A stretch of 43,682 nucleotides of DNA, taken from Gemmatimonadota bacterium. Lineage in GTDB: Bacteria; Gemmatimonadota; Gemmatimonadetes; Gemmatimonadales; Gemmatimonadaceae. The DNA lies in NCBI GenBank assembly GCA_026387895.1, contig JAPLKT010000146.1:1-43682 (forward strand), given 5' to 3'. The translations under genes and the position numbers were made by a program. Shown piece after piece: positions 34,507 through 37,200 of this stretch. Every line of letters begins with the position of its first letter. The stretch's first letter is position 1. The notes below the pieces were generated by a model, which was not told the DNA's origin, did no database searches, and worked only from the letters and a program-made list of their open reading frames with translations.

Positions 34507-35166
34507 TCAGGTGGAGGAGCGCCCGCAAGTGATGCAGAACTTCCACCCCGCTTCGAGCTCGCGCCTGCAGCCGGCACACCGGTGCGCCGGCACGTGCTGT
34601 CCACAGTTGGGGCAGAAATGCGCGTCGCGTCCCTCAGGCAGGTTGTGACCGCACTGTTTGCAGCTGGGCCGCGGCTGGGTGTGAGCGCGCGGCGTGACTA
34701 CCGCCGTCGCGGCGCGCGCCGCGAGCGCCGCGCCCAACGCGATCAGCTCACTCTCCGCTTGGCTCGTGACCACCGGAGCCACGTCGGGCGTCGCAGGAAC
34801 CACGGCGCGTGCCGTGGGAGACGCCAGGCGCTCCAGCACTCGTCGCGCATGCTCCTGCGAGAGCGTGACGTGCGCGTTGAGGTACGAGCGGTACACCGCG
34901 AGATTTGGGTGCGGCGACGACAGTTCGTTGCGCATATCGTCCTGGAGCATCTCGTCCGCAACAAGGTAGCCCTCCTCACCAGAGAGCAGCCGCATCACGA
35001 CGTGCGCGTAGTCGTCGTTCGTCTCTGTGCCGATCGCGGAACGTACCGTGCGATACGGTACATAGCCAAGGAGTTCTGCGACCTCAAATGGCTGCGCGAG
35101 ATATTCCGGGCGCGAGTCGCGGAGCACCTGCACAAGGGCAGCGAAGAGCCGATCGAGTTCGGTCAT
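34507..35166 (-). CDS. Zinc-ribbon protein with N-terminal helical region
   Basis: 219 residues. Residues 1-120 are helical and acidic with no family I know (LDRLFAALVQVLRDSRPEYLAQ; LLGYVPYRTVRSAIGTET). An Ala/Thr/Pro-rich linker follows, then a double zinc ribbon with four CxxC pairs: Cys169/172, 185/188, 197/200, 211/214. Such domains bind zinc and often nucleic acid or protein partners. The gene starts 17 bp after the RNase HI-like gene, in the same operon. Confidence 0.75.
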   Translation of the reverse strand: MTELDRLFAALVQVLRDSRPEYLAQPFEVAELLGYVPYRTVRSAIGTETNDDYAHVVMRLLSGEEGYLVADEMLQDDMRNELSSPHPNLAVYRSYLNAHVTLSQEHARRVLERLASPTARAVVPATPDVAPVVTSQAESELIALGAALAARAATAVVTPRAHTQPRPSCKQCGHNLPEGRDAHFCPNCGQHVPAHRCAGCRRELEAGWKFCITCGRSST

Positions 35167-35183: not shown

Positions 35184-35804
35184 TCAGGCTCGAGGGAGAG
35201 CGGGCGATGCTTTGAAGCTAGCGCTTTCTGGGAACGGACTCGGGTCCGCGTGTCGCGCTCCCTTGGCGCGTGCCACAGCGAGCCAACGGTCAAATTCTGA
35301 TTCCACCAAACCGCCAGAGCTCGACTGATCGGCGGCGGCCGTCGTCGCCAAGTGATTGGCGTACTCGTTCTGCGCGTGGCCGTTGTGTCCCTTCACCCAG
35401 CGCCACGACACGGCGTGTCCATCCACCGCGCGGATCGCGCCATGCCAGAGTTCGAGATTCTCAATCGCGCCGGTCTTGCGCTTCCATCCGTTGCGCGCCC
35501 ACCCAAACACCCACTGCGTCATTCCGTCGACGATATACCGCGAGTCCGTGGTGAAGACAACCTGGAACCGCGCGCCGCGCGCACCGATTGCCGCGAGTGT
35601 CTCCGATACCGAGCGCAGCGCCATCCGGTTGTTGGTCGTTCCGGGCTCGCTGAGCCAAATGTCACGACGCACCATGACGCCGGCCGTCGTTCGGTACTCC
35701 ACCAGCGCACCGGCGCCGCCAGGATTATCTCCTTCGCGACCATTGCCGAGACAGGATTCGTCCGCGTAGATCGCAACAAGCTCGCGGGACGTCACGTCGC
35801 TCAC
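35184..35804 (-). CDS. RNase HI-like protein lacking two catalytic carboxylates
   Basis: 206 residues. The fold matches RNase HI strongly: IYADESCLGN (Asp15), TTNNRMALR, FTTDSRYIVDGMTQWVFGWARNGWK, WRWVKGHNGHAQNEYANHLA. Two of the four E. coli catalytic acids are replaced: E48 is Ala62 (NNRMALR instead of NNRMELM) and D134 is Asn150 (NEYANHLA instead of NERCDELA). D10 (Asp15) and D70 (Asp87) are kept. The canonical DGS is DES. The GTG 35804 start overlaps the next gene's stop (GTGA). Activity on RNA/DNA hybrids is doubtful; it may bind them. A C-terminal extension of about 45 residues is unusual. Whether another RNase H exists elsewhere is unknown. Confidence 0.85.
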   Translation of the reverse strand: MSDVTSRELVAIYADESCLGNGREGDNPGGAGALVEYRTTAGVMVRRDIWLSEPGTTNNRMALRSVSETLAAIGARGARFQVVFTTDSRYIVDGMTQWVFGWARNGWKRKTGAIENLELWHGAIRAVDGHAVSWRWVKGHNGHAQNEYANHLATTAAADQSSSGGLVESEFDRWLAVARAKGARHADPSPFPESASFKASPALPRA

Positions 35805-36019
35805 TTCAGGACCTCGATCGTGTCGGCTTCGTCCACCCAGAGCGTGAGCGGTTGTCCCGTGGTCGGATGCCGCGCTTCGATCGCCTCGCGGCGCCCGCGC
35901 AGCACAAGCCGGTCCGGTACAACCATGTATTCTGTGCCGCGGCGGTACACCGCAATCCGCTTGCCGTCGCGAATCGCGTTCTCCAGCGCGTCGTACTGGG
36001 CGACCGTGAGTTGCGCCAT
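35801..36019 (-). CDS. 72-aa hypothetical protein in the M20-RNase H operon
   Basis: From ATG 36019, which overlaps the M20 stop by 1 nt (TGATG); the longer in-frame start at 36040 lies inside the M20 gene. Small beta-rich protein with AQYDALENAIRDGKRIAVYRRGTEYMVVPDRL and QPLTLWVDEADTIEVLK. It resembles small conserved proteins of unknown function that carry a compact beta-barrel. Codon use is like the neighbours and both ends are coupled, so I accept it as a gene. Function unknown. Confidence 0.65.
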   Translation of the reverse strand: MAQLTVAQYDALENAIRDGKRIAVYRRGTEYMVVPDRLVLRGRREAIEARHPTTGQPLTLWVDEADTIEVLK

Positions 36020-37200
36020 CAGCGCGCCACCCCACACCACTCAAGCGCGAGGCGCGTGAGCACGCGCGTCGCAATCGTAATCTCCTCGACCTCCACATAC
36101 TCCTCGGCGGCGTGCGCCAACGCGATGTCGCCCGGGCCAAAACAGATCGCGGGGATCCCAGCGGCGGAGAGCAACGCGGCATCCGTCCAGCAGGCGAGCC
36201 CCTCAATAGGCGTCGGGCGTTGCTCTGCCACCAACGCCGCATCCAGCGCACGCACAATCGGGTGCTCAACCGAAATGTCGTTTGGCCCCTGCGAGAAGCC
36301 GATCGCGATCTCCGTGCGCAGTTCCGGTCGCGCCGCCCGCACACGATCGCATGCGCCCTGCAACTCCGCGGCAAACGACTCCGCCGATTCTCCTGGCAGC
36401 GTGCGGCGCTCGTATCCGACGACACATTTGTCGGAGTACGTCGAGAGACCCAGCCCACCGCTGACTTTCGCCGCGTGCACCGATGGGCGCCCGAGGAGCG
36501 GATGGGTGCGCGTTGTCAGCACCGTTTGCTGATGCTGCTCCACCTCGGCCATCACGAGCGCCGCCAGCGTGTTGGCGTCTACCCCGATGTCGTAGCGACT
36601 CCCGTGGGCTGCGCGCCCGTGCACGGTGAGGTCCGCCCACGCAAAGCCGCGGTGTGCGGGGACGATGGCCAAGCGCGTCGGCTCAGTGACGATCGCGGCA
36701 TCCGCGCGGATTCCGGCGTCGATGATCGCGCGCGTGCCAATGCTCCCGTATTCCTCGTCGGCCACCGCGGTGATGATGATCTCGCCGGTGAGTCCCGCGT
36801 CGAGCGCGTGCACAGCGGCCGCGCACATGGCAGCGACTCCCGCTTTCATATCAGTCGCGCCGCGCCCGTACAGTCGGCCATCGCGAATAGCGGGATCCCA
36901 CGGCGCGTGAATCATTCCCTCGACGCCGACGGTATCGAGGTGGCCGTTGAAGAGCAGGGACCGGTTGGTCGCCGAGTGGGTGGAGGGGTTTTTGGCCCGG
37001 GCGACCACGTTCGGTCGTCCTGGGGCCGCGTCCATCACGGTGACCGCGAGCCCCCAGCTCGTGAGGATCTCAGCCAGTCGGAGCGCGACCGCGTGTTCTC
37101 CCGGCGCATCGACCACCAGGGCTGGATTGCGCGAATCCACGGCGACCAGCGCCCGCGTGAGTGCGAGCGCGTCGCCGCGCGGAACAGAAACGGGAGTCAT
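36019..37200 (-). CDS. M20 family metallo-deacylase (ArgE/DapE-like)
   Basis: 393 residues. Zinc ligands and catalytic residues are in family order: His87 and Asp89 (GHLDTVG), Asp117 (GRGATDMKAG), Glu149/150 (ADEEYGS), and AAHGSRYDIG in the dimerisation lid. It fits acetylornithine deacetylase or succinyl-diaminopimelate desuccinylase in length and motifs but no residue decides the substrate. It is the first of four coupled or closely spaced minus-strand genes (M20, 72-aa protein, RNase HI-like, zinc ribbon). Confidence 0.85.
   Translation of the reverse strand: MTPVSVPRGDALALTRALVAVDSRNPALVVDAPGEHAVALRLAEILTSWGLAVTVMDAAPGRPNVVARAKNPSTHSATNRSLLFNGHLDTVGVEGMIHAPWDPAIRDGRLYGRGATDMKAGVAAMCAAAVHALDAGLTGEIIITAVADEEYGSIGTRAIIDAGIRADAAIVTEPTRLAIVPAHRGFAWADLTVHGRAAHGSRYDIGVDANTLAALVMAEVEQHQQTVLTTRTHPLLGRPSVHAAKVSGGLGLSTYSDKCVVGYERRTLPGESAESFAAELQGACDRVRAARPELRTEIAIGFSQGPNDISVEHPIVRALDAALVAEQRPTPIEGLACWTDAALLSAAGIPAICFGPGDIALAHAAEEYVEVEEITIATRVLTRLALEWCGVAR

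Follow-up and report, generated by a model that had tools for sequence, protein, structure and literature searches.

In E. coli RNase HI, Asp10 binds both metals, sharing metal B with Glu48 and metal A with Asp134 and Gly11 (PMC8900815); since Gly11 is among the metal-A ligands, residue 11 already lies beside the metals. In RNase H2, D18 and E19 end strand 1, and E19 fills the place taken in RNase H1 by the second carboxylate (PMC3025331). The described protein closest to the one analysed here is LC9-RNase H1, deposited as PDB 4IBN under the title 'Crystal structure of LC9-RNase H1, a type 1 RNase H with the type 2 active-site motif' (Nguyen et al. 2013, FEBS Lett 587:1418-1423). Its D-E-D-N site, with Ala replacing Glu48, is already known, having been published for this metagenomic protein. 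The study reportedly included a mutational analysis and described the Glu as moved to strand 1, and the enzyme is said to be RNase H1-like in behaviour. As for the fourth acid, the general view, taken up by the earlier note on this DNA, is that the D134N mutant of E. coli RNase HI retains part of the activity. Our literature search found no text on E. coli RNase HI D134N and no paper on any Gemmatimonadota RNase HI.

The window, i.e. the whole analysed stretch of 43,682 nucleotides, belongs to a 2.85 Mb draft Gemmatimonadota genome of 154 contigs (96% complete, 3.9% estimated contamination). It carries an RNase HI gene on the minus strand, a strand that the earlier note had not given, with a GTG start at 35804 and its stop at 35184-35186; the start shares 4 nt with the stop of the ORF upstream. 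The gene and its neighbours are:

35184..35804, minus strand: RNase HI gene (rnhA) of the LC9-RNase H1 type, 206 aa (translation; Pfam PF00075, E 6.1e-29; PDB 4ibn, E 4.7e-88)
35801..36019, minus strand: 72-aa ORF, directly upstream, a conserved neighbour (translation; sub-threshold WYL match only)
36019..37200, minus strand: M20 family peptidase/deacylase, upstream neighbour (Pfam PF01546, E 1.8e-32; same strand upstream in 66/69 loci)
34507..35166, minus strand: double zinc-ribbon protein, downstream neighbour (Pfam PF12773, E 9.1e-10; same-strand downstream match in 65/69 loci)

The protein scores 101.4 bits against PF00075 (RNase_H), whose gathering cut-off is 25.8; this is its sole Pfam match at E 0.001, with none to PF01351 (RNase HII). 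Against the NCBIfam ribonuclease HI equivalog NF001236 it reaches 127 bits, below the 160-bit cut-off. Its AlphaFold model (mean pLDDT 92.9) has the RNase H1 fold, with RNases H1 as the best structural matches; the top Foldseek match is 4ibn (E 1.7e-29, Z 31.0, rmsd 1.7 over 199 residues), and E. coli RNase HI lies far below at a Z of about 20. The phmmer alignment to 4ibn covers window protein residues 4-200, of which 133 of the 196 aligned are identical (68%). The YADES, NNRMA, TTDSR and NEYAN motifs are common to the two proteins, which share every active-site residue and are equal in length and C-terminal extension. They differ in source, LC9 being metagenomic and the window protein coming from a draft Gemmatimonadota genome; we found no mechanistic difference. 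With canonical E. coli RnhA (DEDD) the window protein shares the RNase H1 fold, the PF00075 match, the equivalents of Asp10, Asp70 and His124, and the TNNRM and VKGH motifs, but it differs by Gly11 to Glu, Glu48 to Ala and Asp134 to Asn, and by a C-terminal extension of about 45 residues. Its likeness to RNase HII / RNase H2 is confined to the neighbouring Asp-Glu pair that ends strand 1, whereas its topology and catalytic His are those of RNase H1 and it lacks an RNase HII family match.

The codons of the active site are:

35760..35762, minus strand: Asp15 (E. coli Asp10), first catalytic acid (translation; invariant in relatives of this type)
35757..35759, minus strand: Glu16, codon GAA (E. 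coli Gly11), putative relocated second catalytic acid (alignment; same residue in PDB 4ibn; the RNase H2 equivalent is the Asp18-Glu19 pair)
35619..35621, minus strand: Ala62 (E. coli Glu48 position) (translation; Ala invariant in all relatives of this type)
35544..35546, minus strand: Asp87 (E. coli Asp70), third catalytic acid (translation and alignment)
35355..35357, minus strand: Asn150 (E. coli Asp134) (translation; Asn, Asp or His in relatives)

Translation of the minus-strand ORF agrees with the earlier note on Asp15, Ala62, Asp87 and Asn150. At E. coli positions 10, 48, 70 and 134 the protein thus reads D, A, D and N rather than the canonical DEDD, but there is a Glu at position 11: the strand-1 motif is ADESCLGN, compared with TDGSCLGN in E. 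coli RNase HI. Glu16 directly after Asp15, Ala62 at the Glu48 position and Asn150 at the Asp134 position make up the LC9-type (DEDN) sequence pattern, and the site reads D15-E16-D87-N150, with the catalytic His140 also present. The earlier note had counted two of four catalytic acids as replaced; both positions do differ from those of E. coli, yet the active site is short of just one acid, since Glu16, which had been overlooked, stands in for Glu48. The predicted second catalytic acid is not lost: it has left the first helix and now sits where strand 1 ends. We also observed a Glu in strand 2, Glu36 (35697-35699; E32 of P0001), that is invariant in 30 aligned sequences of the DE type and is no known catalytic residue.

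Relatives were drawn from GTDB genomes, and from searches that covered 60 near relatives and 395 genomes of the phylum. The alignment of 131 distinct RNase HI sequences holds 124 with the D-E..A..D site, from eight of the class's sampled family groups (f1-f7 and f9), and 7 with the canonical D-G..E..D..D site, from E. coli, two Clostridia, one Truepera and three f5 genomes (L105-L107). Position 11 is Glu and position 48 Ala in 124/124 distinct relatives of this type, while 101 have Asn at position 134, 22 have Asp and 1 has His; the conservation that the earlier note had proposed to check therefore holds for Ala62 and only in part for Asn150, and relatives keeping both Glu and Asp, which it had weighed against its own reading, are found halfway, none of this type having Glu at 48 and some having Asp at 134. 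One relative, L139 (G065), has ADESCLGV; in all the others, the catalytic Asp-Glu-Ser-Cys-Leu is followed by GN or GND/GNQ. On a quick tree of 160 columns, with the four catalytic columns (10, 11, 48 and 134) excluded, under a long-branch warning and with change counts that are approximate, the Glu11/Ala48 state arises by one change and position 134 undergoes at least 12, with well-supported branches forcing at least six for the Asn group.

The three f5 genomes (L105, L106 and L107, in G279, G246 and G189) have an enzyme with canonical VFTDGSSHPN and WMRAHAG as their sole RNase HI match, and from these sequences a canonical enzyme has apparently taken the place of the class-typical DE-type there. 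Because canonical RNase HI stands alone in these genomes, the two forms are suggested to be interchangeable and to do the same job. The classifiable members of f8 and f11 carry a different canonical RNase H (L152-L156). L157-L160 and L163, with no profile match, fall outside the site classification (weak PF00075, f10/f11; second copy in G038).

The earlier note had raised a second rnhA in the genome, and our search of the source genome (96% complete) found none; most relatives likewise carry exactly one RNase HI. RNase HII is present, with two matches on contigs other than the window's, one of them at a contig end, and in 57/61 relatives. The match at the contig end (L003, G000:C4:2-529) is a second RNase HII-like ORF, cut there, besides the complete one on C79; it may be an extra copy or a contaminant. 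Around rnhA, nearly all of 69 relatives preserve the same-strand order M20 peptidase, 72-aa ORF, RNase HI and zinc-ribbon protein, and the 72-aa ORF, which matches no family above cut-off, lies beside RNase HI on the same strand in 69/69 relatives checked. A mobile origin was rejected: the viral_contigs search gave no relative, and phage and plasmid matches were all below 60% identity. The rnhA locus is in a stable chromosomal setting and is not mobile.

From the observed sequence, conservation, model fold and single copy, we infer metal binding and activity: the window protein is very probably an enzyme active in catalysis, a type 1 RNase H of the LC9-RNase H1 kind, and most likely, judging from its sequence, an ordinary housekeeping RNase HI in the form normal for Gemmatimonadota. 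The second catalytic carboxylate would be supplied by Glu16, beside Asp15 where strand 1 ends, the first helix now having Ala62. Glu16 would take the metal-B and 2'-OH contacts of the canonical Glu48, like Glu19 in RNase H2, with the roles of Asp15 and Asp87 presumably unchanged. Asn150, in place of the fourth acid, would probably be a weaker metal-A or water ligand, and Asn at this position could mean lower activity.

The earlier note had proposed a hybrid-binding pseudo-nuclease, i.e. a protein with a decayed active site that only binds RNA/DNA hybrids, and Ala at the E48 position with Asn at the D134 position would fit that. It is nevertheless very improbable: a carboxylate is restored at residue 16, one residue past Asp15 as in 4IBN and RNase H2, and is invariant in relatives of this type; Asp15, Asp87 and His140 are retained, LC9-RNase H1 has the identical site, and the genome has no other RNase HI to supply catalysis. 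Nor would decay fix one new acid throughout a class. Only a vanishingly small chance attaches to a private mutation or assembly error, which a draft of 154 contigs might harbour; the same residues recur in 92.5%-identical relatives and across the families sampled in the class, which rules it out. Because Glu11/Ala48 is invariant in relatives and the genome has no other RNase HI, the protein is neither a private mutant nor likely to be a pseudo-nuclease.

The altered metal mechanism that the earlier note had offered alongside survives in a mild sense, in that the ligand set is rearranged, but the arrangement was already published. Its stronger form, an active RNase H whose type 2-like site brings a changed metal preference or specificity (e.g. 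Mn2+ dependence, or RNase H2-like cutting at single ribonucleotides), we consider unlikely. The adjoining Asp-Glu pair is indeed the RNase H2 arrangement, crystals of E. coli E48A/D134N were solved with Mn2+ (1wsg), and the title of Tsunaka 2005 names Mn2+ activation of Glu48/Asp134 mutants. Single-ribonucleotide specificity of RNase H2, however, needs a GRG motif and a tyrosine (PMC3025331), and the window protein is without GRG; the genome already has RNase HII. A 2015 paper, which cites the LC9 paper among RNases H1, states that type 1 enzymes lack junction activity, with the LC9 paper among its sources.

Within the reading of the protein as a working LC9-type enzyme, the tree allows a scenario for the site, to which we give somewhat less than an even chance. 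The Glu may have moved just once, out of the first helix and into strand 1, at or close to the base of the class Gemmatimonadetes, and this may have made the fourth acid dispensable, hence at least 12 Asp/Asn switches (once to His) at position 134. An RNase H2-like arrangement would thereby have a second evolutionary origin, this time on an RNase H1 scaffold, where the need for a fourth carboxylate would be relaxed. That the acid became dispensable after the move would fit the partial activity of E. coli D134N.

The call of a dead RNase H, tempting but wrong, is removed here, and the case carries a caution: where catalytic residues are checked position by position, a relocated residue can be missed. 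As far as we have checked, the class-wide fixation of the moved Glu together with the switching of position 134 between Asp and Asn adds a little to what was published. The analysis also places the LC9 type, of which a single metagenomic protein was known, as the standard RNase HI of the class Gemmatimonadetes.
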